From a bacterium (lineage in GTDB: Bacteria; Fibrobacterota; Chitinivibrionia; Chitinivibrionales; Chitinivibrionaceae): DNA of 64,000 bases. Numbering within the stretch: position 1 is the first letter of the stretch; every line of letters begins with the position of its first letter. The notes under the pieces were generated by a model. It was not told where the DNA came from and searched no databases. It was given only the letters and a program-made list of their open reading frames with translations. The stretch is from positions 1 through 64,000 of the forward strand of contig JAIFMU010000009.1 of NCBI GenBank assembly GCA_020048285.1. The letters run 5' to 3'. The position numbers were made by a program, and so were the translations under genes. This document shows positions 3,046 through 35,489 of this stretch, piece after piece.

Positions 3046-6000
3046 TTACTTTTTTATGGCCGGAAATGATCCACTAATGCTGAGCGAGAAATCGACACCA
3101 CTCTTAGCCGATGACTTGAGATACTCTTTCACTTCCAACTCGGGATCCTTGTCGTTGTTTTCCACCTTGTAGAACACCAATTTCTTGTCAGGGTTGAGAA
3201 TGTTCTTGGCTCGGAATGATATTTTCATCGCCGAACCGACATCTTTGGTCAACGACAGATTGAGCAAATGTTCAGGCAGTTCCCACAAGTAAGGTTCAAT
3301 CTGATCGGTCAGTTCCGCAAGACGTCTTCCAAACACGTTGTAGTAGAGCGTTCCCGTGAGTCCAATTGGTTTGGCGTTATAGGACAAAAATGCGTTAATC
3401 ACGAATGGCGACTGCCCCTGAAATGGACGGTACATTCGATGTTCCGTGATATATTTGAATCGCTCCAAATCGGCTTTGTCAATCTTATCTTCGCTGATTT
3501 CAGGGAAATAGTTTGCCTGTTTTCTCGTAGTGCTATCAAGAGTCACACGAGACCACACAAAGGTCGCATTCCCACTGAATGAAAGGCCTTCAAGCGCGGG
3601 AACGAAATCTAACTTGCGCACCACTTCCAGTTCGGCTCCGAGAATATTCGCATCGGACGGCGTATTGATTGGCATGCGCTGATCGTTGTCGAGAAACTGC
3701 ACTTCGATCGGTTTTTGAATCTGCTTGTAAAATCCTCCGAGAGCAAAGAGATCGCCGGCCCGCGGGAAAAATTCGTAGCGTAGATCCACGTTGTCAATCA
3801 GCGATCGTTCGATCTTGCGATTGCCGAGGAACGCACCGCCACCGGTGAACGATTCAGTCATGTACTCCGCCTTTTCACGGATCGATGGGCGAACCAGTGT
3901 TTTACCGTAGGCTGATTTTACAACCATTTTGTCGGTAGGTTTCCACGTGATCAACGCCGCCGGAAGCACGTCGTAGTCATTGAGTTTCGCCGCCAACGAA
4001 TCGTTCTTTTTCGACTCCACGATTGTTTCATCATTCATCTTAGCCAACTCTCCGCGAACGCCCAGCGTAGTGGAAAGTTTGGCAAAAAGAGGCAGTTCGA
4101 TCTGAGCAAACTGAGCAAAAACTGAACTTTCGCCATCGCGCTGAGCGGCGTCACTGGAGTTATCCGACACGACCATTCCCCATGCATAGCCACTGGCGGA
4201 GACCTTCGGGTCGACTTCGCGAATCCCGAGACTATCTTTTTTGATTCGATCCCACGAAGGAACAAGTGATGTACCGCTGGGGAATTTATAGCTGATTCGG
4301 CGCGAACGCTGCTCCTGCCACGCTCCCTGCCAGCCCGCTCCGATCGATACTGTCGCAGAGTCATCGCTCCACTGCCAGAACGGAATCTGAAGTTGACCGG
4401 AACCGGTTCCCATGTTGCTTTTCACACTGCGCCACGAATGACTCGGTGCGGCCATGGTAGTCATCATCTGCCAGCTCGTGGAAGGCACATCCGGTTCATC
4501 TTCAGAACGAGTCGTGTCCTTGAAACAGTAGATATCGCGCATGTCCGGTTCATCCTGCATCGAACCGGTGTAGGTACCGTTCCAGGAGAACGTGAGTTCG
4601 TTGTTGCGCGTAGGAATCTTGTGCGTTCCCGATCCCTTGAAATAGTTCATGGTTCGTTCGATATAGTGAAGGCGCGACGCCATGAAAATTCCCTCGGGAA
4701 GATCTGACGCTGGATATGATCCTTCAACATTTTTGATTTTGTTTTCTCCACTGCGAAGGTAGAGATAGTCCGCGGTGAAACGATGATTTTTGGACGGTTC
4801 ATAGGCGGTGTTGCCCAAAATCGACCACATCACTTTCTCTTTCGAATCATCCACAAGGAAATCTTTGGTCAACCGCATAGGGCTGATCGAATCGTCCACT
4901 ACAAAGGATTTCTGGATCGATTCCGGTTTCTGTTTCCGTTCACTTTTGTAGGTGAGACTCACGTTGTAGCCCAATTTCCCTGAACCGATCGGCTTACTAT
5001 TCCCATAGGAAGTAGAAAAATCAAAGTTCGGGGCCGCCGTAACCTGACGACTGCGCATCTCCGTCGAAAGGGAAGTGGCCATTTCATCCACAAAAGGAAG
5101 ATGCATTTTGATTGAATCGGGAAGGTCTGGGCGATTGAGATTTTTTCCGTAGATAATGGTGTGTTTCTCAATCTCCTCTTTGCTGTTATTCTTGAAAATC
5201 TGGGGAAGTGCTCGAAGGCCATCGTCCGCGCCCAGCCAAAACAGCTTGCCATTATCAGACGTGTGGAACTGTTTGAACGTGGTGAGCGAATGAATACCCA
5301 TCCCGCCGCTGACAGTGAGTTTTTTCGATTCCGGGAACGGCTTGGTGGAAATATCGATAATCCCCCCGGCAAATGCTCCTGATTTTTCAGCCTGGAACGT
5401 CTTGAATACGCGAATATTTTCTATCACACCAGTGGGGAAAATATCCATCTGAACCGCATTTTCATCGGGATCGGAACTGGGGATCATCGATTCGTTGAGT
5501 GTCACTTGCGAATATTTCGCCGGGAGTCCGCGGACGATAACGTACTTGTCATCCACGATTGTCGCCCCGGTGATCTGTTTCATCGCGTCCGCCGCCGAAC
5601 TCGCCCCCGCTTTGGAAAACTCTTCCGCCGCCACAGCATCTACCACTTCGAATGTCTGCTGGCGCTCTTTCAGAAGTGCCGCGCCACTCGATTTGACTGC
5701 CACGCCGCGAATGGTCATTTTCGACATAGAAGAGACACCGGATTTTTCCATCATCACATCGTAACGACTATTTTTGCCCAGAACTACCGCAGTATTCTCT
5801 TCAGTTTTCGTTTCTAGTCCATCGCCAAGAATTGTCATTGTGTAGATTCCCGGAACCCCCTGAAGTGCAAATGATCCATCGGGATTGGTCACCGCATCGA
5901 CACTCTTTTTCCCTTTCAAGACCACACGTACACCGCCAATGGGCTGACCGGTTTCTGTAGAAACGACCACACCAACCACTCCCCCATTTCCGGGAAGAAT

Positions 6001-16366: not shown

Positions 16367-17164
16367 TTGAACACTGAAGTGAAACAAAAGGAGTTCTGCC
16401 GACTCACCGGTTTAACGCGTAAGTCATTACTGATTTACGAAGAAAAAGGATTGTTAGTTCCATGCAGAATTGATAGTTCAACGGGATATCGTTTCTACTC
16501 AAGCTTGGAAATTGATCGGGGAACAAAAATAAGCATTTTGCGTGCACTGGATTTTGCCGTTCCGGAAATTGCAGCGGTTCTCGAACAAGGAGACAATGCT
16601 TTGTCTGTGTTAGAACAGAAAGAAGTAGAGTTGACTCGCAAAATGGCGGTAGTCGAAAATGGCTTGAGGTTTTTGGAAGTGAATAGAGGCGTAACCCCTT
16701 TTGTTGAAGATGTTCGTGAAACAAAGTTGTCGCTATTTCAGGTCGCCACAATGGAAGGACGAGGTTCAGTTCGCGATATTGCTGTTCATTTGAAATTGCT
16801 AAGTCGATATATTCGCAACTACGGAGCGCTTGAATGTGGTCCCACGGGAACGTTCTTTTACCCTGATAGCACGTTTGACGATTTTCATTTTAAGGTGTTT
16901 GTTCCGGTCAATGGTGAATGGTTGATTCCGACGAATGGATTTGTAATTGAAAATTTTGGAATGCCTCGATTCCTCTATCTTCGCCACTACGGATCCTATG
17001 AACTTCTTGCGCCACTCTACGAACGGTTGCGTATAGCCGTGGAAGAACGGGGTGAAACCCTTGATGGAAGTTATATAGAACTCTATAGAAATCCACCGCA
17101 CCAACTTCTCGGATCGGACACTTCCTTGCTTATAACCGATATTGGAGTTCCTTTATGGTATTGA
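16367..17164 (+). CDS. MerR-family regulator with GyrI-like effector domain
   Basis: 265 residues. The N-terminus is a MerR winged helix (KEFCRLTGLTRKSLLIYEEKGLL, then the R-Y-Y-like STGYRFYSS). A dimerisation coiled coil lies at about 75-105. The C-terminal 150 residues form a GyrI-like/BmrR-type ligand domain (LRHYGSYELLAPLYERL). Such proteins activate transport or stress genes on binding a small hydrophobic molecule. The start is TTG at 16367, with AAGGAGAGG upstream. The gene overlaps the next gene by 10 bases, so it probably controls its own operon, including the urea-transporter fusion. Confidence 0.85.
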   Translation: MNTEVKQKEFCRLTGLTRKSLLIYEEKGLLVPCRIDSSTGYRFYSSLEIDRGTKISILRALDFAVPEIAAVLEQGDNALSVLEQKEVELTRKMAVVENGLRFLEVNRGVTPFVEDVRETKLSLFQVATMEGRGSVRDIAVHLKLLSRYIRNYGALECGPTGTFFYPDSTFDDFHFKVFVPVNGEWLIPTNGFVIENFGMPRFLYLRHYGSYELLAPLYERLRIAVEERGETLDGSYIELYRNPPHQLLGSDTSLLITDIGVPLWY

Positions 17165-19239
17165 AAAAACAGTTCTCATATCTTCTTGAAAGCTATAGCT
17201 ACCTTCTGTTTTCCACCAATAAACTGTTGGGTGGAATTCTACTCGTGCTCTCTTTCGTGAACCCTTCAGCGGGGATCCATGCGCTTGTTGCTTTTTTCGC
17301 CGCATCAGCCTTTTCTAAAGTGTGCAATACGAATAACGCCCTAGATACACATACGCGCTATCTTTACAATTCTTTGATGACAGGGCTTGCAATTGGTTTT
17401 GTGTATGCTGTTTCTCCACTTTCTCTTCTAATGAGTGTGGTGGTGGGGATTCTGACATTTTTATTTAGTTCATCCTTACATGCACTTTTTTCTTATTACT
17501 TAGGTTTACCGATTCTCAATCTTCCCTTTGCAATTATCGCTACGCTGGTCTATTTGGCTGCAATGCAATACAGTTCGTTGTCGCATATTCATAACTCATT
17601 TGAAATGAGTATTTTGAATATTGATGCTTTGCCGGTAGCGATCCAGGGGTTATTGCGGTCGATAGGGGTACTGCTCTTTTTGCCCTACGATTGGATTGGA
17701 CTCATCATTTTGAGTATCGTCCTCGTTTTGTCGAGAATCAATTTCTTTCTCATTGTGATGGGATACTTTGCGGGAACATTTTTTCATTCGCTCTTAACGG
17801 GGATACCGCATTCTAGTGTCTCTAATCCTTTTAGTTTCAACTATATACTTATTGCTCTTTCGCTGGGAGGGTATTTTCTTATTCCATCGAAACGAACGTA
17901 CGGAATCGCGCTTATCGGGGTCTGTGTCAGTTCAATTTTACTTGATGGTATGACTGTTTTTTGGTCGACTTTCGGGATTCCTGCGTTTACTCTCCCTTTT
18001 GCCATTACTGTTCTTCTTTTTATACATGCGCTGTATATCGCAAAATACCCTTTCGTAACGCGACAATTTCGCAATTCGCCAGAACAAAATCTCGAAGAGT
18101 GGTGCACCAATGCGGAACGGTTCGGCGTCACTCTTCCGTCGCCTCGTTTACCCTTTAGCGGTGAATGGACGGTCTATCAAGGTTTTGATGATGATTGGAC
18201 ACATCAAGGTCTGTGGCGGTATGCGGTTGATTTTGTTATTGAAGATCCCGTGAATGGGACAACATTCCGCCATAGTGGAAAGCGGCTCGAAGATTTTTAC
18301 TGTTATAATAAACCAGTTCTCGCACCGGTAAGTGGAACCGTGGTTGCTCTTGTCTCGACGATTCCTGATAATCCGATCGGTTCGGTAAACAAGGAAGAAA
18401 ATTGGGGGAATTATATAATCCTCTATTCTGACTTTGGGTACTACGTTGAATTGTCACACTTTGCGAATGGATCGCTCGCAGTGAATATCGGTGATCGGGT
18501 TGTGGTGGGACAGGTAATCGGACGGTGTGGAAATTCCGGCCACTCCGCTCAGCCGCATATCCACATGCAGGTTCAGTATTGGGCTTATGCCGGAGCGCCG
18601 GCGGTACAATTTTCCTTTTCGCAAGCGGAATCAAATGGCGCAGTTATTCGCGGCGAAACACATCCACGAAAGGGTGATCGGTTCTCTTCGCTGGTAGTTT
18701 CAAAGAAAATGGGGGCGATGTTTCAATTTCTTTTGGATGATACTATTCGTTTTCGATACCACAAAAATGGTGTCGATGCAGGGCTTTTGGAACTGAAAGT
18801 GCGCATGGATGTCGATGGATCGTACTGCCTTGAAGATGTGGTTCGAAAGAGCAAACTCTACTTTATTCAACGTGAATCGGAGTTTCTTTTTACTTCCTAT
18901 ATCGGAACTGAAAATTCGCCTTTGAGGTTTCTGTTTACCGCTGTTCCGTCGATTCCCATGACAGAACAACCGGTTACATGGAAAGACTCACTTCCGGCAT
19001 CGGTAGTGCAAAGCCGGTTGCCGCTCTTTGCCTATCTTTTGAAATCATTTTATCATCCGCTCTACAGTGGAAAAGGATCATACAAGAGTGAAAATGGTGT
19101 AGTTCGTGGATCAGTCGTGCTGAATCATCTCTTCTCTACGGATCATTTTGAAAGTGAATTAACCCTTGATTCACATGCACGGTTTTCGCGAGTTAAAATG
19201 AAAATGAAAGGTGAGATACATGTGCTTGAAGCGCTGTAG
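17155..19239 (+). CDS. Urea-transporter / M23 peptidase fusion protein
   Basis: 694 residues in the inner membrane. Residues 1-310 have about ten membrane segments in the layout of the urea transporter family, including the conserved LGLPILNLPFAI and FGIPAFTLPF signatures, one from each half of the channel. Residues about 330-500 are an M23-type (LytM) domain: HSGKRLEDFYCYNKPVLAPV, NYIILYSDFGYYVELSH, and HSAQPHIHMQVQ with the HxH zinc motif. A beta-rich domain follows. In M23 enzymes these histidines bind zinc for peptidoglycan cross-link cleavage. The expected first zinc motif (HxGxD-like) is altered to YAVDF, so catalysis is uncertain. It starts inside the end of the regulator gene and its own end overlaps the next gene by 20 bases, so the genes are co-translated. 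Confidence 0.88.
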   Translation: MVLKKQFSYLLESYSYLLFSTNKLLGGILLVLSFVNPSAGIHALVAFFAASAFSKVCNTNNALDTHTRYLYNSLMTGLAIGFVYAVSPLSLLMSVVVGILTFLFSSSLHALFSYYLGLPILNLPFAIIATLVYLAAMQYSSLSHIHNSFEMSILNIDALPVAIQGLLRSIGVLLFLPYDWIGLIILSIVLVLSRINFFLIVMGYFAGTFFHSLLTGIPHSSVSNPFSFNYILIALSLGGYFLIPSKRTYGIALIGVCVSSILLDGMTVFWSTFGIPAFTLPFAITVLLFIHALYIAKYPFVTRQFRNSPEQNLEEWCTNAERFGVTLPSPRLPFSGEWTVYQGFDDDWTHQGLWRYAVDFVIEDPVNGTTFRHSGKRLEDFYCYNKPVLAPVSGTVVALVSTIPDNPIGSVNKEENWGNYIILYSDFGYYVELSHFANGSLAVNIGDRVVVGQVIGRCGNSGHSAQPHIHMQVQYWAYAGAPAVQFSFSQAESNGAVIRGETHPRKGDRFSSLVVSKKMGAMFQFLLDDTIRFRYHKNGVDAGLLELKVRMDVDGSYCLEDVVRKSKLYFIQRESEFLFTSYIGTENSPLRFLFTAVPSIPMTEQPVTWKDSLPASVVQSRLPLFAYLLKSFYHPLYSGKGSYKSENGVVRGSVVLNHLFSTDHFESELTLDSHARFSRVKMKMKGEIHVLEAL

Positions 19240-21470: not shown

Positions 21471-21533
21471 CAGCGGGTTTCCTACGCAAATTTGAATGAA
21501 AAACGACAAATTCCAACCAAAAGGATGGGCCCT

Positions 21534-21776
21534 ATGGAACTGAAAAAACTGCAGAATCTGGCGATCGCCGACAGTGGATACATTTTCGATCCCGCTTCGG
21601 GAAACAGCTATACTGCCAATGAAACGGCGCTGTTTATTATGGCTGACCTAAAAGCGGGGAAATCGACCGAAGAGATCATTGGGCATCTCTGCGAAGAGTA
21701 CGAAACTGATTCTGCCACTGCCGAAAGCGATACGATCAGAACGATCGAGCAGCTTCAGGCGAACTACCTTATTTAA
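21534..21776 (+). CDS. PqqD-like (RiPP recognition element) protein
   Basis: 80 residues, starting MELKKLQNLAIADSGYIFDP. It has the PqqD-fold pattern: two short strands (SGYIFDPASGNSYTANETA), a helix TALFIMADLKAG, then KSTEEIIGHLCEEYE and a last helix ending LQANYLI. This is the small winged-helix recognition element that binds RiPP leader peptides or partner enzymes. The ATG at 21534 is favoured because AAGGATG precedes it and earlier residues do not fit the family. An ATP-grasp gene and a PLP decarboxylase gene follow on the same strand, an association typical of peptide-tailoring clusters. Confidence 0.8.
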   Translation: MELKKLQNLAIADSGYIFDPASGNSYTANETALFIMADLKAGKSTEEIIGHLCEEYETDSATAESDTIRTIEQLQANYLI

Positions 21777-21797
21777 TGATCAAACGACACAATACGG

Positions 21798-21842
21798 TTC
21801 GACAAGCTCACTGACCGGACTTTGGGGCCTGAGCCTGTCGAA
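21798..21842. repeat. Dispersed inverted repeat TTCGACAAGCTCA / TGAGCCTGTCGAA
   Basis: Arms at 21798-21810 and 21830-21842 pair with one wobble across 19 bases, between the PqqD-like gene and the ATP-grasp gene. Same family as 148-192. It could fold in the transcript and tune expression of the downstream gene. Confidence 0.65.
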
Positions 21843-21874
21843 GGCGTATTAATCGTTTCAGCAAAGGAATAAAC

Positions 21875-22948
21875 ATGATAACAGTTGCAATGAGCGGAAT
21901 CAACGCGATTGACAATCCCGGGCCGGGAACCGGAATCGCGCGGTCGCTGAAAGAGAGCGATCTAGAGATCCGCACAATCGGGCTCGCCTATGACTCAATG
22001 GAGCCGGGAATCTTTATGGACTGGGTGATCGACAAGAGCTACATCCTTCCGTGGCCGTCGTGCGATCCGAAAGTGTATCTCGAACGGCTGTCGTATATCC
22101 ATGACCGTGAACAGATCGATGTGATTATTCCGGCGCTCGACGCGGAACTTCCGCTCTATATGAAACTTCGCCCGGAAATCGAAGCAATGGGGATCAAACT
22201 GCTGCTTCCGGATATCAAAACCTATATGCGCCGCGACAAGCAGAATCTGGTTCAGTTGGCGCCGGAACTGGGACTGTTGGTTCCGGAAACGCTGGTCATG
22301 AGTTCTCCGGCGGATATTGTCACCGCGGAATCGATGTTCGGCTATCCCATGATGATCAAAGGGCCGTTCTACGAAGCGTTCAAGGTGAGAACCCGTGCTG
22401 AAGCGGAAAAAGAGTTCTACAACATGGCGGCCAAGTGGGGATATCCGATTATTGCTCAACAGTTTATTGTCGGCGATGAGTACGATATGATCGGTCTGGC
22501 GGATGGTCACGGGATGGATATGGGAACCATGGCGATCAAAAAGATCATGACTACCAAACTGGGTAAAGTGTGGACAAATGTGGCGGTTCGCAACGATGCA
22601 ATTTTCGAAGCGGCGCGCAAGTTCGTCACGGGACTCAAGTGGGCAGGTGGTTATGAGTTGGAACTCCTTCAGAAAGCGGGTACCGACGAGTTCTATCTGA
22701 TCGAAATCAATCCGCGGTTTCCCGCGTGGCTCTATATGGCGGCAGGATGTGGGATCAATCTTCCGGAACGAATGGTGAAACATCTTCTGAATATGCCCTA
22801 TGAAACTCATTCGGACTACGAAGCGGGCAAGATGCTGATTCGCTACACCGGTGAAATGATTCGGCATATCAGCGATTTCGAACAGCTGACAACTCTGGGC
22901 GAGAGTCGGGAAAAGACAGATAAAACGAAAAATCGACAAAACGATTAA
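21875..22948 (+). CDS. ATP-grasp ligase of the PqqD/decarboxylase cluster
   Basis: 357 residues, soluble. The layout is of carbamoyl-phosphate-synthase-like ATP-grasp enzymes: an N-terminal Rossmann part (ITVAMSGINAI, DVIIPALDAELPLY), the ATP-binding lysine region YPMMIKGPFYEAFKV, and metal-binding ELELLQ and FYLIEINPRFPAW (E-x-N-x-R). Such enzymes join a carboxylate to an amine or thiol through an acyl-phosphate. AAAGGAATAAAC precedes the ATG. Its substrate is not readable; with a PqqD-like protein before and a PLP decarboxylase after, peptide or amino-acid tailoring is the likely role. The last 20 residues are charged and run into the tandem array. Confidence 0.85.
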   Translation: MITVAMSGINAIDNPGPGTGIARSLKESDLEIRTIGLAYDSMEPGIFMDWVIDKSYILPWPSCDPKVYLERLSYIHDREQIDVIIPALDAELPLYMKLRPEIEAMGIKLLLPDIKTYMRRDKQNLVQLAPELGLLVPETLVMSSPADIVTAESMFGYPMMIKGPFYEAFKVRTRAEAEKEFYNMAAKWGYPIIAQQFIVGDEYDMIGLADGHGMDMGTMAIKKIMTTKLGKVWTNVAVRNDAIFEAARKFVTGLKWAGGYELELLQKAGTDEFYLIEINPRFPAWLYMAAGCGINLPERMVKHLLNMPYETHSDYEAGKMLIRYTGEMIRHISDFEQLTTLGESREKTDKTKNRQND

Positions 22949-22983
22949 ACGGAATGCAGGCGCGGGTTGCATTATTTCAACCT

Positions 22984-23301
22984 GTGAAGAATGATGAGTA
23001 TCCAGCCGTCAAGTATGACCGCGGAATCGTGAAGAATGACGGGAGATTGTTAAGAATAGGTGTAAAAGCGTGAAGAATGGCCGCGTAATCGTGAAGAATG
23101 AGTGCAAAACCGTCAAGAATGAGCATGAAAATCAGCAGATTACGATTGATCTTCCCTTGTCTTGAGGTACGGATTTGAACATGAGTATTCGGATAATGAA
23201 CATTTATGCATAACTATTGAACATGACCATGAATCGTCGAACAGGAATGTGAAACCGATGAGCATGACCATGAAACCGTTGAACATGACCATGAACGACA
23301 G
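22984..23301. repeat. Degenerate tandem array with 21-bp period inside the PqqD cluster
   Basis: Two sub-arrays keep one phase. The first has units starting GTGAAGAATG or close to it at 22984, 23008, 23029, 23049, 23070, 23091 and 23112. The second has units starting GAACATGACC or close to it at 23177, 23198, 23219, 23239, 23260 and 23281. Steps are 21 bases, with rare 20 or 24, and the gap between the sub-arrays is about three periods. Because 20- and 24-base steps break any reading frame, open frames across it do not look coding. It fills most of 22949-23433, which holds no other gene. Confidence 0.85.
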
Positions 23302-23433
23302 GGTCTTACGTTGGATCCGTGGTAAAAGAAGATTCGTAACGGGTACTTTTGGGAATAATTTTTGAATTCAGCCCCAAAGCGGGCGACAGTATACCAACAC
23401 AGGTCGAAGGCCTGTGAACAATAAGGAGAAAAT

Positions 23434-24783
23434 ATGAAAAAAAGATATATCCGCCCCACAATCGTGAAACAAGTGGTGGGAGTGATGAACAAGTTCGGCA
23501 ATGTATCCATGAGAAATATCAAGGAGGATATCGACGGCGCTGCGATCACCGACATGGTGGAACAGTACGGTTCACCGCTCTTTGTGTTCAGTGAAAAACA
23601 GTTGCGCAATCAGTATCGCCGAGCGTACCAGGCGTTTTCGACCCGCTACCCGAACGTGCAGTTTTCATGGTCGTACAAGACCAACTATCTTGGCGCGATC
23701 TGTTCGGTGTTTCACCAAGAAGGGGAAATTGCCGAGGTTGTTTCGGGGTTTGAATACCAGAAAGCGCGTCAACTCGGCATGCGCGGTGATCAGATTATTT
23801 TCAACGGCCCGTGGAAAAATGATGATGAACTGAAACTCGCGTTCGAAGAGAATGCCATTGTCAATCTTGATAATTTCAACGAACTGCACCGCGCCGAAAA
23901 GATCGCCAAAGCGCTCGGGAAGAAAGTGGGTGTGGGAATTCGACTCAATATGGACACAGGAACCTACCCGCGATGGTCGAAATTCGGTTTCAATCTGGAG
24001 ACTTCTCAGGCGGCGGATGCGGCGGCACGGATTGCTCGTTCGGAATGGCTCGAACTGAAAGGGATCCACTCCCACATCGGAACATTTATGCTCGATCCCA
24101 ATGCCTATGTACTTCAGGTGCAAAAAATGGTGAATTTCATGCTTCACATGGAAAATGAACACGAAATCGAACTGGAGTATATCGATATCGGAGGCGGATT
24201 CCCGTCCAAAAGCCGACTCAAGGGGATCTACCTTCCGCCGGAAGTGTCGGTTCCGGAGATCGATGCCTATGCCGAAGCGATCTGCAATACGCTGACAGCG
24301 GTTCTTCCCGCAGGACGCACCCCAAAACTCTACCTCGAAACGGGACGCCACATGGTTGACGAAGCCGGTTCGCTGGTCAGTTCGGTGATCGGTCAGAAAC
24401 AGCTTCCCGACGGAAATTCGGGCTACTTCCTGGATGCGGGAGTGAACATGCTCTACACCGGATCGTGGTATAATTTCAACATTGCTCCGGCAGTGGACAC
24501 CGGCGGTGTCCCCGAAGCGTGTACCCTGTTCGGCCCGCTCTGCATGAACATTGATGTGGTGGCTGATTCGGCCTATCTTCCGCCGCTACCGATGAACACT
24601 CCACTGGTCATGTGGCCGGTGGGCGCGTACAATGTGACTCAGTGGATGCAGTTTATCACCTATCGCCCGGCTGTCGTGATGGTCATGGAGGATGGTTCCA
24701 CGGAACTGATTCGGCGCAAAGAGGTTCTGGAAGATGTCACCGGCCCAGAAATCGTTCCGGAAAAGGTTCGGGTGAAAAAATAG
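23434..24783 (+). CDS. PLP-dependent decarboxylase (DapDC/LysA fold) with leader-like N-terminus
   Basis: 449 residues. From about residue 30 it is a fold-type-III decarboxylase: the PLP lysine K82 in SWSYKTNYLG, the barrel motif GIHSHIGTFM, GGGFP, ETGRHMVDEAG, and FGPLCMNID aligning with the cysteine region of diaminopimelate decarboxylase. Enzymes of this fold decarboxylate or racemise amino acids. Residues 1-22 are extra and begin MKKRYIRPTIVKQVVG. They carry Y-x-x-P-x-I, the spacing seen in leaders recognised by PqqD-like domains. Translation from 23434 is supported by AAGGAGAAAAT, so the extra part is made. Whether it is docked to the PqqD-like protein, cut off, or a relic is open. Confidence 0.85.
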   Translation: MKKRYIRPTIVKQVVGVMNKFGNVSMRNIKEDIDGAAITDMVEQYGSPLFVFSEKQLRNQYRRAYQAFSTRYPNVQFSWSYKTNYLGAICSVFHQEGEIAEVVSGFEYQKARQLGMRGDQIIFNGPWKNDDELKLAFEENAIVNLDNFNELHRAEKIAKALGKKVGVGIRLNMDTGTYPRWSKFGFNLETSQAADAAARIARSEWLELKGIHSHIGTFMLDPNAYVLQVQKMVNFMLHMENEHEIELEYIDIGGGFPSKSRLKGIYLPPEVSVPEIDAYAEAICNTLTAVLPAGRTPKLYLETGRHMVDEAGSLVSSVIGQKQLPDGNSGYFLDAGVNMLYTGSWYNFNIAPAVDTGGVPEACTLFGPLCMNIDVVADSAYLPPLPMNTPLVMWPVGAYNVTQWMQFITYRPAVVMVMEDGSTELIRRKEVLEDVTGPEIVPEKVRVKK

Positions 24784-25062: not shown

Positions 25063-25629
25063 ATGATAGCTCGAATAATTGCATGTATTGCCTGTGTAAC
25101 GCTTTCACTCTATGGATTTGAACGCGTTCCGAAGCAGTACTCGTTGGAATTTGGTGGGATCTACGCTCATAAAAACGAAATTTCTCATGAGTCACTTCCG
25201 GGGGCGACGGTTCTGTTTGATTACTCCTGGCAGTTGTCTGGACTTGATGGTACACGGCCTGCATCGTTTATCACCGTTCCTATGGGATATACGGTGTTTT
25301 CCGGCGATTCGAGCCTTTCGATTTTACAGTATGGATGGACAATTCGACATGATCTCACAAAAAGTACGCCTGTAATTCCCTTTCTTGGGTACGGGCTCTT
25401 GTTGAATCAGCTTCATTATGAAGGTGACAAGGGGAGTCGTTTTGGCCATCAGACGCGATTTGATGTTGGAGCGGAGTGGTTCAACGATCGGCCGTTTCAT
25501 CTGTTTGCAAAAGGGGAGTGGAGTATGACTCGTTTTCCCGTAAAGCACCTCGAGAAAAAAAGAATACAATTGCCGAATAGATTATGTTTTCATAGTTATC
25601 AAAAGAGGTTTTCATGGTTGAAATATTAA
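25063..25629 (+). CDS. Small exported beta-rich protein upstream of cydA
   Basis: 188 residues from the ATG at 25063. A signal peptide (MIARIIACIACVTLSLYG) is followed by alternating strands (YSLEFGGIYAHKN, FITVPMGYTVFSG, PFLGYGLLLNQLHYEG, FDVGAEWF) as in small outer-membrane barrels. The last 35 residues are basic and unlike a final strand, and the frame runs 16 bases into cydA. Truncation by a frameshift near 25545 is possible. An upstream in-frame ATG at 25012 has no better ribosome site. Family not recognised. Confidence 0.5.
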   Translation: MIARIIACIACVTLSLYGFERVPKQYSLEFGGIYAHKNEISHESLPGATVLFDYSWQLSGLDGTRPASFITVPMGYTVFSGDSSLSILQYGWTIRHDLTKSTPVIPFLGYGLLLNQLHYEGDKGSRFGHQTRFDVGAEWFNDRPFHLFAKGEWSMTRFPVKHLEKKRIQLPNRLCFHSYQKRFSWLKY

Positions 25630-26768
25630 GTCGCATCCAATTTGCGTTTTCTGTGGGGTTCCATTTCCTGTTCGTACCTCTCAGTATCGGACTCATTTTT
25701 TTGGTCTGTTTGTACGAATACAACTACATGAAAAGCAAAAACCTTCGCTATAAACATCTCTCAGAGTTTTATGGCGATATGTTTGTGATTAACTATGCGT
25801 TCGGCATTGTGACAGGCTTTACCATGAGTTTGCAATTTGGCACAAACTGGTCAGCCTATTCGATTTTCATGGGGGATGTTTTCGGTGCACCGCTCGTTTT
25901 CGAAGCCATTATCGCCTTTTTCCTCGAATCAACGTTCACTGGTCTGTGGATTTTCAAGAAAAATAAAATGTCTAACCGGTTGCGGTTTATCACGGTTCTA
26001 ATGATTCTTATCGGTACAACATTCTCGGCTTTGTGGATTATCACCGCTAATGGATTTATGCAGAATCCGGTCGGGTATTCACTTGCCGCCGATGGAAGTC
26101 GTGTTGTTGTGGAAAATTTCAAAGAAATCCTGCTGAATCCCTATGCATGGTATATGCTTATTCACAACAATACCGCCTGTTTCCTCTTGGGAGCGTACTT
26201 TGTTCTTGGGATAGGAGCGTACCGGTATCTTCGCGTTGACAAAGATAGTGAAGAAGCCGCAACTTTCCGCCTAGGATTTAAGCCTGCAAATATTGTTCTT
26301 GTGGTGATGTCGTTTCTTATGCCGATTATCGGCAACGTGTACTATAATTATATTGTGCCAATCCAGCCAACAAAGATCGATGCGATCAGCGGTGGTTCTC
26401 CTATGGTGACAGTCTCTTTTGCGCTTATGGTGGGATTGGGAACGCTGTTTATTCTCTACTCAACGTATACCCTGGTGTTCTTTAAAAAGTACATGGCTTC
26501 ACCGGTGATGCAGAAAATTTATCTCTGGTCGTTTCCGCTTCCCTATATCGCGATTATGGCTGGGTGGATCGTAGCCGAAGTTGGCCGTCAACCTTATGTC
26601 GTTTATGGGCTTATGCTTACTAAAAATGCCGTGAGCAATGTTCCTGAAATGCAAGTGTGGTTTTCTCTCATGACAATTCTGATTATGTATTTCATTCTTG
26701 CTGTTGCTTGTGTATACTTGATGGTTAAACGAATCAATGCACCACTTTACAAAGAGGAGTTGGTATGA
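25614..26768 (+). CDS. cydA: Cytochrome bd-type oxidase subunit I lacking the Q-loop
   Basis: 384 residues, nine membrane segments. Haem ligands and proton-path residues are present: H17 (FHFLF), E97 and E105 (FEAIIAFFLESTF), H184 (MLIHNN), M272 (ALMVGLG) and E322 in AEVGRQP. Normal subunit I has 440-520 residues because a long Q-loop lies between segments 6 and 7; here only about 15 residues join them (IQPTKIDAISGGSP). K254 matches the conserved lysine, but the glutamate needed for quinol oxidation (E257 in E. coli) is S259. The enzyme could still bind haems and reduce O2 but looks unable to use quinol in the usual way. AAAGAGG precedes the ATG. It overlaps cydB by 4 bases and heads the Rnf gene chain. 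Confidence 0.9.
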   Translation: MVEILSRIQFAFSVGFHFLFVPLSIGLIFLVCLYEYNYMKSKNLRYKHLSEFYGDMFVINYAFGIVTGFTMSLQFGTNWSAYSIFMGDVFGAPLVFEAIIAFFLESTFTGLWIFKKNKMSNRLRFITVLMILIGTTFSALWIITANGFMQNPVGYSLAADGSRVVVENFKEILLNPYAWYMLIHNNTACFLLGAYFVLGIGAYRYLRVDKDSEEAATFRLGFKPANIVLVVMSFLMPIIGNVYYNYIVPIQPTKIDAISGGSPMVTVSFALMVGLGTLFILYSTYTLVFFKKYMASPVMQKIYLWSFPLPYIAIMAGWIVAEVGRQPYVVYGLMLTKNAVSNVPEMQVWFSLMTILIMYFILAVACVYLMVKRINAPLYKEELV

Positions 26769-27772
26769 GTCACGAATTACTCGCGAGTATTTGGTACTTT
26801 ATCCTTGCCCTTGTGTGGGCAATTTACGTAAGTCAGGAACTATTCGTTACCGGCGTGGGTATGCTCAGTTTGAAATACCGCGTCGAAGAGGATTATTTTC
26901 AGAAAATAAATGAGAGTGTTGCCACGTTTTGGGATGGTATACAAGTTTGGCTGATCGTAGCGGTGGGAGGGCTTTTTGCCACGTTCCCTACGGCCTATGG
27001 CTTGACACTTCAGGCGTTGTATATTCCTTTTTATCTACTGCTTATGGCTGTGATTTTTCGAGGAACTTCTATCGAGTTGCTCTATAAGTCTGACGATCGT
27101 CTGTGGCAAAAAGCAGTGAGTAAAGTGTGGGGCGTTTCCAGCCTTGCGATGATTCTTATCGTTGGGATTTACTTGATTAATCTGTTCACTGGCCTTCCGA
27201 TCAAAGATAATTTGATGACTGAAAGTTTCACGGTGATTTTCTCGCGGTCGGCTCAGTTTGGCGGAGCACTTTTTGTGTTGAGTGCCCTTACCATGGGGTA
27301 TTGTTGGATAAAAATGACTCTTGGCAAGGATTTCAAAACGCCGTCAAAGGCGTCAAGTTTGTGGATCAGTGGCGCTTCCATCTTTGCGGTGGCACTTTTG
27401 TTCCTCGCGCTGACCAATAAGAACAACGTGTTTGAAACAGGGTACTTTGCTAAGATACCTGCACTTTGGACGATGCCAATTTTGGCGATGTTGCTCTATG
27501 TTGCACAATTTTTGTTCATGTTGAAAGAACGCTATGTCGGTGCGTTTGTTTCGATCATTTTGGGTATTACTCTTGTGATTTTTACCGGATTTAGTGCGGC
27601 TTTTCCGTATATACTTCCGTCAACAGTTGCTCAAAGTGAAGGCTTATTGATTATCAAAGCCGCTTCTTCACAACATACATTAGAAATTATAACCGGTGTA
27701 ACACTGGTGTTTTTACCTGTTGTTATTGTCTATCAAGGTTGGAAATACCGTAAATTTTGGAGAAAGTTCTAA
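26765..27772 (+). CDS. cydB: Cytochrome bd-type oxidase subunit II
   Basis: 335 residues with about eight to nine membrane segments. The signature WDGIQVWLIVAVGGLFATFP near residue 57 matches the WDGNQVWL motif of subunit II. It forms the heterodimer with subunit I and helps hold the haem-bearing core. The ATG overlaps the cydA stop. It ends four bases before rnfD, so the oxidase and the Rnf genes are one transcription unit. A bd oxidase fused in operon with Rnf genes is not a usual arrangement. Confidence 0.9.
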   Translation: MSHELLASIWYFILALVWAIYVSQELFVTGVGMLSLKYRVEEDYFQKINESVATFWDGIQVWLIVAVGGLFATFPTAYGLTLQALYIPFYLLLMAVIFRGTSIELLYKSDDRLWQKAVSKVWGVSSLAMILIVGIYLINLFTGLPIKDNLMTESFTVIFSRSAQFGGALFVLSALTMGYCWIKMTLGKDFKTPSKASSLWISGASIFAVALLFLALTNKNNVFETGYFAKIPALWTMPILAMLLYVAQFLFMLKERYVGAFVSIILGITLVIFTGFSAAFPYILPSTVAQSEGLLIIKAASSQHTLEIITGVTLVFLPVVIVYQGWKYRKFWRKF

Positions 27773-27775
27773 GCG

Positions 27776-28918
27776 ATGGATATTCGAATTAACAAGGGAC
27801 CGATGGCCTATTTCAAGGGCGATTTAGAGAAAGTTAGCACCGATTTCTATCGCGTGCTCATTGTTCTTACGGCAATTGCAACGGTGTCACAGTTTGCGTA
27901 TGATTATGTTTTGGCAATTAAGGCAGCGTTGATTTTTGTTGTCAGTGTGTTTGTTGCCCGCGAATCGGAGATTTTCTTCGTGACTCAAAAGGCGAGCATC
28001 ATGCGCGATGAAGCAAAAGCAACTCTAAAAACCACAAAACCGGAAGTGACGGCGTTGATTTATGCGCTGATGCTTCCTGTGGGAACGCCTCTATTTGTCG
28101 TGGCAGTTGGATCCTTCGTCAGTGTGTTCATCGGGAAAATGGTGTTTGGTGGTTACTCGTTTAATGTGTTCAATCCGGCTATTGTGGGAAGATTGTTTGT
28201 GGGGATCTCTTGGCCTGCCTTGGTGACCACAAACTTTTCGCCGATTATGGACAATTACCTGTTACAGTTGATTTTTCAAAAAGATTTCACTGCGGTTGCA
28301 CTTTCGCCACTTATGGAACTGCACGCTAACGGAATTGTGTCACTGGCAAATATGCGCCCATTGACGGAATTGTTGTTCACGACAAATCATGGTATGCTGT
28401 TTTCGTTTCCGGTGATCGTCTATCCACTCGTATTGATCTTCTTTGCCGTGCGCAAAACCATTGATTTTCGCCCGCTGGGGATCACGCTAGTCACATCTCT
28501 TATTACACTCGCGGTAATTGCCATTTCATTCAATCAGAGTTTTGAATATCCGCTCTTTCACTTGTTGGCTGGTGGGTATCTCTTTGTGGCGATTCTAATG
28601 ATGACAGATCCGTTCACAAAGCCCTACACGACAATTGGAACCATTGCCTACGCGGCGATTTTTACACTCTCGTTCACCATGGTGCGCTTTCTCGGAAAAG
28701 ATTCTGACGGCGTTTTTTACGCACTGCTCTTTGCAAATCTCTTTGTTCCGCTGATTAATAAAAAAACTGATAAAGCGATCTTTGGTTTCAACCGTCAGAC
28801 TGTGACAACGCTTGTTGTGACTGTTTCGATTCTCGTTGGAACGGGGTTGTTTATCACGAAAATTCTTGAACAGCGAATTGCAAGTAAAGAAGTGACGGTT
28901 CTGTATGGTAAAAATTAG
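27776..28918 (+). CDS. rnfD: Rnf complex subunit D-like membrane protein
   Basis: 380 residues, about ten membrane segments, RnfD/NqrB family (FNVFNPAIVGRLFVGISWPAL, HLLAGGYLFVAILMMTDPFTKP). In other RnfD proteins a threonine in an S-G-A-T-P-L loop carries covalent FMN. The equivalent stretch here reads TAVALSPLMEL, without the GAT core, so covalent flavin is doubtful. The start at 27776 is four bases after the cydB stop. RnfD takes part in electron transfer across the membrane and ion pumping. It overlaps rnfG by 14 bases. Confidence 0.9.
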   Translation: MDIRINKGPMAYFKGDLEKVSTDFYRVLIVLTAIATVSQFAYDYVLAIKAALIFVVSVFVARESEIFFVTQKASIMRDEAKATLKTTKPEVTALIYALMLPVGTPLFVVAVGSFVSVFIGKMVFGGYSFNVFNPAIVGRLFVGISWPALVTTNFSPIMDNYLLQLIFQKDFTAVALSPLMELHANGIVSLANMRPLTELLFTTNHGMLFSFPVIVYPLVLIFFAVRKTIDFRPLGITLVTSLITLAVIAISFNQSFEYPLFHLLAGGYLFVAILMMTDPFTKPYTTIGTIAYAAIFTLSFTMVRFLGKDSDGVFYALLFANLFVPLINKKTDKAIFGFNRQTVTTLVVTVSILVGTGLFITKILEQRIASKEVTVLYGKN

Positions 28919-29444
28919 TTTTAAGTATGGTGTCATTCTCGGCGCCTGTTCGATCATCTGTGCTTCAATTGTTTCCGGTGTGTACGTGATTGTTCAACCC
29001 ATTATAATTGAGCGAACTATCCAAAAGGTGCGGGACAACCTGGACAAGGTTTTTTCGAATACACCTTTCGAATACGAAGAGATCACCGAAACGTCAAAGC
29101 TTGAAAAGTTGCTCGATGTCGATGGGCTGTACAAAGTCAAAATAGCCGGCGATTCTGTCAACTATGTGTATGAAATGAGTCCCGAAGGACGAAATGCGCC
29201 AATACTCTATCTCATCGCTTTTGACATAAAAGGTGCTGTAAAGAAAATCCAGTATGTTCAGATGCGCGAAACAAAGGGGCGTGGGGACAAAATTACCCAT
29301 GAAGAGTATCTCGCCGCTATTTATAAACAGAATGCATCGGCTATGAATGTCGATATTATCACCGGTGCGACCTATTCGACTAAGGCGATGAAACAGAGCA
29401 TTGAAACTGTTTCAAATCACTTGATAACTGAGGTGCTGAAATGA
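28905..29444 (+). CDS. rnfG: Rnf complex subunit G, covalent flavoprotein
   Basis: 179 residues: an N-terminal membrane anchor (ILGACSIICASIVSGVYVIV) and a periplasmic FMN-binding domain. The flavinylation motif is intact at residues 153-158 (TGATYS), so FMN should be attached by ApbE, which is not in the window. RnfG passes electrons between RnfD and RnfA/E in known complexes. The start codon lies inside the rnfD end, and its stop overlaps the rnfE start. Confidence 0.92.
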   Translation: MVKISFKYGVILGACSIICASIVSGVYVIVQPIIIERTIQKVRDNLDKVFSNTPFEYEEITETSKLEKLLDVDGLYKVKIAGDSVNYVYEMSPEGRNAPILYLIAFDIKGAVKKIQYVQMRETKGRGDKITHEEYLAAIYKQNASAMNVDIITGATYSTKAMKQSIETVSNHLITEVLK

Positions 29445-30178
29445 ATAAACTCGCCGCTGATATGTATCGCGGAATCATAAAAGACAATCCCACATTTGTC
29501 CTTTTCCTCGGGCTCTGCCCAACTTTGGCACTGACCAATAATCTTACCAATGCGGTGGGTATGGGGTTGAGTGTTGTGGTTGTTCTGGCGATTACGAACG
29601 CTTTGATTTCCATGGTTCGCAAAATCGTTCCTGCAGACATTCGCATTCCTGTCTATATCACGATCATCGCCTCGGTGGTGACGGTGATGGGAATGCTCAT
29701 GGAAGCGTATATGCCTGCTTTATTTGAAAGTATGGGAATCTATTTCCCGCTTATTGTGGTGAACTGTATCATTCTTGGTCGTGCAGAATCATTTGCCGCA
29801 GAAAATGGCGTGGTGGATTCGTTCTTTGATGGAGTATCCAGCGGGCTAGGGTTTTTACTCGGACTATCAGTGTTGGGATTCTCCCGCGAACTGATAGGCA
29901 CCGGCGCAGTGGATATGCTGAAATTTCGCATTCTCGATGCAAATCATGCGCCCACCATTTTTGTGGAATCTTCCGGCGCATTTCTCATGTTCGGATTGAT
30001 CGCTTGGATGATGAACACGATTAAACTCAACAAAGAGAAAAAAGAGAAAGAGATCGCCACTGCAGCAAAGGCCGCCGCGAAAGCTGCCGCCGAAGCAAAA
30101 AAAGCTGAAGAGGAAAAACTGTCTATAGCATCCGCTCAGCCCGAATCAACTCAACCTGAAGGAGATCTTCGTGGATAG
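29441..30178 (+). CDS. rnfE: Rnf complex subunit E
   Basis: 245 residues, six membrane segments of the RnfA/E/NqrD/E family. It contains TFVLFLGLCPTLALTNN, with the cysteine that helps hold an FeS centre in the membrane, and PLIVVNCIILGRAESFA. After the last segment it has an extra Lys/Ala/Glu-rich coiled tail of about 45 residues (EKEIATAAKAAAKAAAEAKK) not typical for RnfE. The ATG overlaps the rnfG stop by four bases, and rnfA starts within its last codons. Confidence 0.92.
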   Translation: MNKLAADMYRGIIKDNPTFVLFLGLCPTLALTNNLTNAVGMGLSVVVVLAITNALISMVRKIVPADIRIPVYITIIASVVTVMGMLMEAYMPALFESMGIYFPLIVVNCIILGRAESFAAENGVVDSFFDGVSSGLGFLLGLSVLGFSRELIGTGAVDMLKFRILDANHAPTIFVESSGAFLMFGLIAWMMNTIKLNKEKKEKEIATAAKAAAKAAAEAKKAEEEKLSIASAQPESTQPEGDLRG

Positions 30179-30776
30179 TGTTATTTCAATCTTGACGATC
30201 GCTTTTAGCGCGTTTCTGATTCAAAATATCGTTCTGACTCAGTTCCTTGGACTCTGTTCATTTTTCGGTGTGGGGAACAAAGAGGATTCTGCGCTGGGTA
30301 TGGGTCTTGCGGTTACATTCGTGATCACACTTTCTGCGGTTGCGACCTACGCACTCTACATCTTTGTGCTTGTACCGTTCAAGTTGGAGTTTCTCTCCAC
30401 GATTTCATTTATTCTCGTAATCAGTGGACTTGTTCAGTTTGTTGAAATGGTGATTAAAAAATATTCACCGGGACTCTACCAGAGCCTGGGAGTGTACCTT
30501 CCACTTATCACAACGAACTGTGCCGTTCTTGGTGTGGCTTTGTTGAACATTGACAAGAGCAATAGCGAACTCTCTTTGGGTATGAATTTTCTGATCATGA
30601 TAGTGTTCAGTTTTTTCACCTCTTCTGGATACGCTTTTGTTATTTACGTCTTTGCGCTGATTCGCGAACAAATTGCGAAGGCGCCGATTCATGCGGGACT
30701 AAAAGGGGTGCCGATCGCTTTGATCACTGCTTTTGTCATGGCCATGGCGTTTAACGGTTTTGTGGGGATGTTCTAA
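30171..30776 (+). CDS. rnfA: Rnf complex subunit A
   Basis: 201 residues, six membrane segments, paralogue of RnfE. IQNIVLTQFLGLCSFFGVGN and PLITTNCAVLGVALLN carry the conserved cysteines for the membrane FeS cluster shared with RnfE. The start is GTG at 30171, preceded by AAGGAGATCTTC, which decides it. The stop codon TAATG overlaps the start of the next small gene. Confidence 0.93.
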   Translation: MDSVISILTIAFSAFLIQNIVLTQFLGLCSFFGVGNKEDSALGMGLAVTFVITLSAVATYALYIFVLVPFKLEFLSTISFILVISGLVQFVEMVIKKYSPGLYQSLGVYLPLITTNCAVLGVALLNIDKSNSELSLGMNFLIMIVFSFFTSSGYAFVIYVFALIREQIAKAPIHAGLKGVPIALITAFVMAMAFNGFVGMF

Positions 30777-30958
30777 TGAGAATTGCTATAGCCATTATAG
30801 TCATCGTTGGATTGATTGCATTCTATTTCACCATGTGGAAATTGAATCGCAAACAGCAGTTACCGGAAGAGTTCAAAGGATCATTGCCAAAATGCGGTTC
30901 ATGTAGCGATTCACAATGTGCGCTCAGTGATTCGAAGGGAGATACTGAAAATGAATAG
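30776..30958 (+). CDS. Small membrane protein with Cys-x2-Cys-x4-Cys tail in the rnf operon
   Basis: 60 residues. Residues 2-21 are one membrane helix. The rest is hydrophilic with C40, C43 and C48 in KCGSCSDSQC, a spacing able to bind metal or take part in redox work; it resembles small Cys-rich membrane proteins. It overlaps rnfA by one base and rnfB by eight, so it is translationally coupled and probably a real part of the complex. No family name is claimed. It might stand in for a lost FeS domain. Confidence 0.75.
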   Translation: MRIAIAIIVIVGLIAFYFTMWKLNRKQQLPEEFKGSLPKCGSCSDSQCALSDSKGDTENE

Positions 30959-31250
30959 TCTTGTTCTGTCAGCGATTGCCGTGATCGGTATTGTCGGGAT
31001 TACTATTGGCGTTTTGTTGGGAATCGCCTCGATTGTGCTCGCTGTAAAAGTGGATGAACGCGTTCAGAAGATATACGACTCACTTCCTCATTTCAACTGC
31101 GGAGCCTGTGGATTTCCCGGATGTCAAGGAATGGCCGAGGGTCTTATCAAGTCGGCTGTTCCAATCAGCAATTGTAAACCTTCTAAGCCAGATCGCCGAC
31201 AGCTCATTAAAGAAATTTTAGATGAGTATGGAATTGAGAATAAACTGTAG
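30951..31250 (+). CDS. rnfB: Truncated RnfB: membrane helix plus first FeS domain only
   Basis: 99 residues, against roughly 190 or more in usual RnfB. Residues 5-33 form the membrane helix, and the 4Fe-4S domain follows with C50, C53, C58 and C75 (HFNCGACGFPGCQG, then ISNCKPS). The ferredoxin-type domains that take electrons from ferredoxin are missing, and the frame ends cleanly with a terminator 26 bases later. ATG at 30951 is preceded by AAGGGAG. No rnfC is in the window. The electron entry of this complex must therefore differ from that of normal Rnf, or come from a subunit encoded elsewhere. Confidence 0.88.
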   Translation: MNSLVLSAIAVIGIVGITIGVLLGIASIVLAVKVDERVQKIYDSLPHFNCGACGFPGCQGMAEGLIKSAVPISNCKPSKPDRRQLIKEILDEYGIENKL

Positions 31251-31275: not shown

Positions 31276-31309
31276 AATGCCGGAACTCCTAGGAGTTCCG
31301 GCATTGTTT
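31276..31309 (+). terminator. Terminator of the cyd-rnf operon
   Basis: A 30-base perfect palindrome with arms AATGCCGGAACTCCT and AGGAGTTCCGGCATT, followed by GTTTTG. The same CCGGAACTCCTAGGA core recurs in the hairpin at 32412-32437. Confidence 0.85.
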
Positions 31310-34395: not shown

Positions 34396-35489
34396 CTCTA
34401 AAGTCGGTTAATTTGTAGACATTGTATACGCAGTATCAGGGGCACGGAAAAATGAAGCAACTTTATCTTTTGCACGCTGAAGTTTCATCAGACAACTTCG
34501 AGCAAATTTTGTCAAATCATCCTTCGTAGAAATCGATCTTTTTCCGATCTCTCGTTTCACATGGCTCCAAACCCATTCGTCAGGATTGAGTTTCGGTGAA
34601 TATGGAGGAAGAAATACCAGTTCAATTTTCTCTTTGTGTTTTTCGATAAATGCTTTTGTTTTCTTTGACCTATGCATTGGATGCCCATCAACGATGAGGA
34701 TAATTTTCTTTTTTTGACCTACCAGAAGTCGGCGTAAGAACTCAATAAACAATTCTGTCGTTCCGTTCTTTGCTGTGACCATGAACCGTAACTCTCCATA
34801 ACTGTTTACTGCCGATACTAGATTAATTCTAAATCGTGAACCAGTTGATGTCACAACGGGACGAGTGCCTTTTAATCCCCATGTTTTACCTGAGTGATGA
34901 TCAGAGCGTAAGCCTGACTCATCTTGAAACCAGATTTCTGCATTTTCTTTCTTCGCCCGTGCTACTAGCGCCGGATATTCAACATCACGCCAGTTTTGTA
35001 CCAAAACAGGATCTTGCTTGTCTGCAGCATACTTGGGCTTCTGAAAACTGAAACCAAGCTTTTTGAGTAGTTCACCAGTTTGTGTTTTCCCAAGGTCAAC
35101 ATTAAACTCCTTCTTTATAAGAACTTGAATCATGGATCGTGTCCAAAGTGCAAATTCAAACTTCAACTGCAAAGGCGTCTTATCTTTTAATATTTCAAGG
35201 AGTTTTACACCTTGCTCAGGACTGATTTTTGGTTCGCGCCCCGGTGCTGGTTTACGACGAAGACCTTCTTCGCCATAGGCTACGTATGTGGCTAACCATT
35301 TGTAAATAGTCGAACGGTTAAGCCCAAGACTGTCAACGACAAGTTCAGGACTGGCACCACCTTCGACCTGTTTCACTGCGCGAATCCGAATTTCGGCTTG
35401 CGCTTCTCTGCTGATTTTTCTTCCATCTATTTTCATGCCACGAAAATAATTCATGCATAAAAATGTTGCAATATTATCCGACTTTAGAG
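34396..35489 (-). mobile_element. Complete IS630-family insertion sequence
   Basis: About 1.09 kb. The ends are CTCTAAAGTCGG at 34396 and its reverse complement CCGACTTTAGAG ending at 35489. TA lies on both flanks (34394-34395 and 35490-35491), the target duplication expected of IS630/mariner elements. The transposase frame inside is intact, so the copy may be active and recent. Confidence 0.9.
34408..35454 (-). CDS. IS630-family transposase
   Basis: 348 residues, full length in one frame. The N-terminal HTH (AKQVEGGASPELVV region, then SLGLNRSTIYKWLATY) is of the winged-helix type found in IS630. The DDE catalytic region has FQDESGL, ILIVDGHPMHRSK and LPPYSPKLNPDEWVWSHVK. It cuts the element ends and inserts at TA. 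The inverted repeats at 34396 and 35489 bracket the gene closely. No frameshift is seen. Confidence 0.92.
   Translation of the reverse strand: MNYFRGMKIDGRKISREAQAEIRIRAVKQVEGGASPELVVDSLGLNRSTIYKWLATYVAYGEEGLRRKPAPGREPKISPEQGVKLLEILKDKTPLQLKFEFALWTRSMIQVLIKKEFNVDLGKTQTGELLKKLGFSFQKPKYAADKQDPVLVQNWRDVEYPALVARAKKENAEIWFQDESGLRSDHHSGKTWGLKGTRPVVTSTGSRFRINLVSAVNSYGELRFMVTAKNGTTELFIEFLRRLLVGQKKKIILIVDGHPMHRSKKTKAFIEKHKEKIELVFLPPYSPKLNPDEWVWSHVKREIGKRSISTKDDLTKFARSCLMKLQRAKDKVASFFRAPDTAYTMSTN

Follow-up and report, generated by a model that had tools for sequence, protein, structure and literature searches.

A loop-less cytochrome bd encoded in one operon with Rnf-like genes is a candidate quinone-independent oxygen reductase

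The cydAB-rnf operon and its surroundings

The window analysed here, a stretch of 64,000 nt, comes from a single MAG that is 70% complete; a genus mate that is 96% complete served for comparison. Eight same-strand genes, identified with Pfam and NCBIfam profiles, overlap or abut in the order cydA-cydB-rnfD-rnfG-rnfE-rnfA-small Cys protein-short rnfB (Table 1). Their junctions are overlaps of 4, 14, 4, 8, 1 and 8 nt and one 3-nt gap. The rnf operons published for the likely lineage of the host have the order rnfCDGEAB (PMC4814513), compared with which cydAB stands at the place of rnfC. No rnfC was found in the operon among the ORFs of the window, and RnfC_N had no match in the genome at its 70% completeness. 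Besides CydAB and the Rnf parts, no further redox protein was recognised in the operon, and it holds no cytochrome c gene.

Table 1. Features of the cydAB-rnf operon and its downstream flank (positions in the window)
Feature	Position	Strand	Observation
cydA, loop-less cytochrome bd subunit I	25614..26768	+	384 aa; haem ligands complete, quinol pocket predicted to be lost
Q-loop remnant, CydA residues 251-262, QPTKIDAISGGS	26364..26399	+	S259 codon (26388-26390) replaces E257
cydB, cytochrome bd subunit II	26765..27772	+	PF02322 E 4e-56; TIGR00203 144 bits (cut-off 117); 4-nt overlap with cydA
rnfD-like membrane subunit	27776..28918	+	PF03116 E 3e-49; both flavin-site motifs lost (motif comparison); additional C-terminal TM helix
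RnfD residues 171-179, FTAVALSPL	28286..28312	+	Replaces flavinylation motif DxxSSATPL, found in 20/20 comparison RnfDs
RnfD residues 204-211, NHGMLFSF	28385..28408	+	At the place of GGCIGETS (riboflavin-site motif); GxxxG(E/A) in 20/21 comparison RnfDs
rnfG-like FMN-binding subunit	28905..29444	+	N-terminal TM; PF04205 E 2e-10; TIGR01947 below cut-off
RnfG flavinylation motif DIITGAT, residues 150-156	29352..29372	+	Intact (motif comparison)
rnfE	29441..30178	+	[2Fe-2S] cysteines C26 and C109 kept; TIGR01948 227 bits (cut-off 213)
rnfA	30171..30776	+	[2Fe-2S] cysteines C29 and C117 kept; TIGR01943 218 bits
60-aa ORF	30776..30958	+	Single TM helix and a CxxCxxxxC motif; flanked by rnfA and rnfB
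Short rnfB	30951..31250	+	TM anchor and one [4Fe-4S] domain (four Cys); PF04060 E 2e-11
Terminator-like intrinsic hairpin	31276..31305	+	13-bp stem and T tail; directly after rnfB, operon end
DDE_3 (IS630-type) transposase	34408..35454		Downstream flank, some 3 kb from the operon

Upstream of the operon, a PqqD-like small ORF (recognised by eye), an ATP-grasp/PylC-like protein and a PLP decarboxylase lie in a row (21492-24783) and may form a cluster for modifying a peptide or an amino acid. Further upstream, a urea transporter domain is fused to an M23 peptidase domain (17155-19239), adjoining a MerR-type regulator (16367-17164).

Several observations bear on the origin of the operon. The genus mate does not encode a CydA of this type, identity between this RnfD and those of the host's order is low, at about 30%, and a transposase lies nearby; horizontal gain is therefore likely. 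The CydA is the only one in the genome as assembled. A DsbD-like gene downstream of the operon has relatives in the host's order, from which it follows that the contig belongs to the lineage; no synteny around this gene was seen in related genomes.

A subunit I without the Q-loop lid

The earlier note on this DNA had described a CydA in which only about 15 residues join membrane segments 6 and 7, with a serine at the place of the quinol-site glutamate and with the haem ligands intact, and alignment bears it out on each point. The PF01654 match (E 1e-112) falls into two blocks that skip profile positions 251-310, the Q-loop part. Between the columns of E. coli residues 257 and 393 the window CydA has 12 residues, against 66-135 (median 70) in the 106 other CydAs, E. 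coli included, that formed the comparison set (107 with the window CydA); the lid of the Q-loop, E. coli residues 259-306, is deleted. The E. coli haem ligands H19, H186 and M393 correspond to H17, H184 and M272, and the acids E99, E107 and E445 to E97, E105 and E322.

Four further positions of the E. coli enzyme are replaced. E257 has become S259, at a column where 105 of the 106 other CydAs carry glutamate; R391 has become A270, which is unique among the 107; D239 has become N241, also unique, the others having D or H; and H126 aligns with R124. Q249 and K252 are kept, as Q251 and K254. The AlphaFold model (pLDDT 89.9) has helix 6 at residues 213-250, a short helix or linker at 252-260 and helix 7 from residue 263, and it agrees with E. 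coli bd structures at TM 0.87-0.93, that is, with the bd fold.

The quinol site lies on the periplasmic side, beside haem b558, and in E. coli structures of 2026 the quinol head sits 6.7 Å from the haem b558 iron, below the lid formed by residues 259-306 (PMC13189123). In the same structures K252 and E257 fix the Q-loop in position and make no direct contact with the quinol (PMC13189123). The earlier note had concluded that the oxygen-reducing core is kept while the quinol site is gone. The comparison points the same way, with one correction: since K252 and E257 anchor the loop and not the quinol, the missing lid is a stronger argument than the serine. The predicted loss of the quinol site thus rests mainly on the absent lid together with the R391A replacement, and less on E257S alone; for the same question the retained K252 is not decisive.

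Sequencing or assembly error is an unlikely cause of the loop loss, a concern that the earlier note had itself raised, since the deletion keeps the reading frame, the ORF is unbroken and overlaps cydB tightly, and the neighbouring Rnf genes show matching losses.

As for its placement in a tree, which the same note had called for, the window CydA is nested (98%) among the quinol-type CydAs of an 80-row set, on a long branch (1.72); that set holds no OR-C or OR-N reference sequences. With this position and an ordinary CydB as partner, the loss of the quinol site looks like a separate, secondary event. CydAs from the phylum (168 genomes) reached no more than about 40%, and the ones examined whole had Q-loops. 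A strict scan of genome contigs yielded no relative; an alignment-based scan returned at least 595 CydAs, the best 80 of which all have loops and none of which has Rnf neighbours. No close relatives were found in IMG/VR or plasmids, and among the matches listed no other genome has the same cydAB-Rnf arrangement. Titles and abstracts matched by a full-text literature search held no description of a bd-Rnf arrangement, a weak negative given the many journals outside its coverage.

The Rnf-like subunits and the host

In Rnf, an outward leg leads from RnfB through the [2Fe-2S] cluster of RnfA/E to the periplasmic FMN carried by RnfG, and a return leg leads from the FMN of RnfD through riboflavin to RnfC and NAD+ (PMC12174285). 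The operon divides along this line. Parts of the outward leg are all kept, namely the RnfA/E cysteines, the four cysteines of RnfB and the DIITGAT motif of RnfG, whereas the redox parts of the return leg are lost or missing. RnfD has neither of its flavin-site motifs; it matches PF03116 only, with no PF00175 NAD-binding domain fused to it, and its structure predicted from the single sequence (pLDDT 44.5) was unusable. The RnfB ORF, of at most 110 aa and followed by the terminator, lacks the ferredoxin-accepting C-terminal domain that is present in other RnfBs (PMC12174285).

A second, canonical Rnf lies on another contig (C193) of the same genome, with a long RnfB and an RnfD carrying the normal GGCIGETS; the Rnf of the window is thus a second, specialised copy. 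On that contig rnfE and rnfA share one frame (3797-4930), apparently through an assembly frameshift, and the contig ends inside rnfD, leaving rnfC out of view. The 60-aa ORF of the window matched no family; it resembles FeoB-associated Cys-rich proteins weakly, below the threshold. By analogy with NqrM, which serves Nqr, its product may help to insert the [2Fe-2S] cluster. The canonical Rnf has no counterpart of this ORF at its rnfA/rnfB junction.

The host belongs to the phylum Fibrobacterota, one CydA of which is identical to that of a named Fibrimonadaceae record. Its lineage appears to make no quinones. MqnA/D was found in none of 40 genomes of the order, and MenD above the cut-off in only one of them (G037), which has an ordinary Q-loop CydA; neither MqnA nor MenD above the cut-off was found in the host's own genome (70% complete) or in the genus mate (96%). 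UbiA-family prenyltransferases, which do occur in the genome, were set aside as a quinone marker, being universal and so uninformative. Cofactor genes were also sought: ferrochelatase was found in no member of the order except G037, and ApbE, present in family members, in neither the host's genome nor the genus mate. G037, as the sole member of the order with MenD, ferrochelatase and a Q-loop CydA, has apparently an ordinary respiratory set. Two other members encode a CydA but no MenD above the cut-off (G001, contig C351, L030; G002, contig C92, L018), the second of these CydAs on a very long branch. Canonical Rnf occurs in the order, and cultured bacteria that probably belong to the host's group are described as having Rnf but no respiration (PMC4814513, PMC4704652).

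A proposed electron route and its alternatives

The earlier note had suggested that the neighbouring genes indicate the electron donor of this CydA, and the Rnf core in the cydA operon gives that suggestion substance. The reading that we consider probable is that the eight genes encode a single membrane complex, a quinone-independent oxygen reductase fed by the outward half of an Rnf pump. A low-potential cytoplasmic donor, probably reduced ferredoxin, would pass electrons to the single [4Fe-4S] cluster of the short RnfB; the intramembrane [2Fe-2S] cluster of RnfA and RnfE would move them across the membrane; and the covalent FMN of RnfG would receive them on the periplasmic side. From there they would go to haem b558 of CydA, which lies near that side with its Q-loop cover gone, instead of to the RnfD flavins, RnfC and NAD+, and then through haems b595 and d to O2. 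Direct docking of RnfG on CydA is, we infer, the simplest arrangement, because CydAB is the only acceptor encoded in the operon and haem b558 is periplasmic and uncovered. RnfD may have been kept as a scaffold or an ion path with no electron carriers of its own. More tentatively, and with somewhat less than even confidence, we suggest that an ion-pumping half-Rnf joined directly to cytochrome bd could act as a ferredoxin:oxygen oxidoreductase, by which an anaerobic fermenter without quinones might remove or respire O2 and conserve energy. Several observations run against the half-pump reading: the arrangement comes from one MAG, with no relative that shares it among the matches listed; neither ferrochelatase (in the order outside G037) nor ApbE (in this genome and the genus mate) was found; K252 and Q249 are retained in CydA; and the operon as a whole evolves fast, for which relaxed constraint would be another explanation.

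Another periplasmic donor, such as a cytochrome c or a flavoprotein, might instead feed CydAB, the Rnf-like genes being co-transcribed as a separate outward electron or ion system. In keeping with this, the soluble donor of the short RnfB and the docking of RnfG on CydA are only predicted, and cytochrome c is the presumed donor of OR-N enzymes (PMC10839748). We regard such an arrangement as unlikely: the operon encodes no other recognised redox protein, and with RnfC and the RnfD flavins gone a half-Rnf has nothing of its own to pass electrons to, leaving CydAB as the only acceptor that the operon offers.

Equally improbable, in our judgement, is that the operon does not work at all, being a decaying or chimeric remnant of horizontal acquisition or a product of misassembly. 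The source is a single MAG whose genus mate lacks this CydA, the CydA branch is long, a transposase lies close downstream, and the genome yielded no ferrochelatase or ApbE. Yet none of the eight frames is interrupted, their junctions are tight, a terminator follows them, and the DsbD-like gene downstream belongs to the host's order. Neutral decay is further disfavoured because it would not keep the haem ligands, the iron-sulphur cysteines and the RnfG motif, all on the outward leg or in the oxygen-reducing core, while removing specifically the return-leg and quinol sites.

Least likely of all is that CydAB still oxidises quinol, the site having been rebuilt close to haem b558, with quinone taken from the surroundings and reduced in Nqr fashion by the Rnf-like proteins. 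In favour of this, the equivalents of Q249 and K252 remain, D256 lies close to the lost E257, an operon that pairs a quinone reductase with an oxidase would be no surprise, and UbiA-family prenyltransferases are encoded, though that family is broad. Against it, the lid is deleted with R391 and E257 replaced, both RnfD flavin motifs from which quinone would be reduced are lost, and MqnA and MenD are missing from the genome at its 70% completeness and from nearly all of the order.

To our knowledge, quinols are the electron donors of every bd oxidase that has been characterised biochemically, and for bd relatives without a quinol site the donor is mostly unknown. In this operon the sequence points to a particular donor module and route, and the losses on the two sides of the proposed junction match. 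If the reading of a bd enzyme fed by half an Rnf is correct, a low-potential chain of flavin and iron-sulphur centres can directly drive O2 reduction by a bd enzyme in the absence of a quinone pool, Rnf can be split and its outward half re-used, and the handling of O2 in a lineage described as lacking respiration would be explained.

Set beside known systems, the window CydA shares with quinol-oxidising (qOR) cytochrome bd, as in E. coli CydAB, the nine-TM fold, the ligands of haems b558, b595 and d, the E99/E107 acids and a conventional CydB. It differs in the missing lid, in E257S, R391A and D239N, and in its Rnf genes and seemingly quinone-free lineage; the quinol site that defines the qOR enzymes is, as far as the alignment can tell, not there. 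With the OR-C and OR-N bd-type reductases, bacterial CydAA' candidates included, as summarised in later papers (PMC10839748, PMC13189123), it has in common the lack of a recognisable quinol site and the need for another donor. It is not an obvious member of either, since its partner is CydB and not a further CydA and since it clusters with CydAs of the quinol type, in a tree that holds no sequences of OR-C or OR-N; it was not filed as OR-N for these reasons.

On the Rnf side, the putative complex retains RnfA, RnfE, RnfG, RnfD and the membrane end of RnfB of the RnfABCDGE complex, with the ligands of the outward-leg cluster and of the RnfG FMN. It lacks RnfC, the RnfD flavin motifs and the ferredoxin domain of RnfB, and its acceptor is apparently O2, reached through CydAB, rather than NAD+; judged by RnfC, RnfB and RnfD, its predicted composition is not that of an Rnf complex. 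The Rnf of Methanosarcina acetivorans is likewise coupled to an extra haem protein, a multihaem cytochrome, but it keeps the full set of six Rnf subunits and delivers electrons to methanophenazine or an extracellular acceptor rather than O2 (PMC12174285). Lastly, the NQR/RNF-like single-path flavinylation systems (PMC8238504) also use one of the two legs, with one-way flow to an extracytosolic flavin; theirs is an NqrB/RnfD-NqrF fusion, whereas the window keeps the opposite leg, RnfB-A/E-G, which would end at a membrane oxygen reductase.
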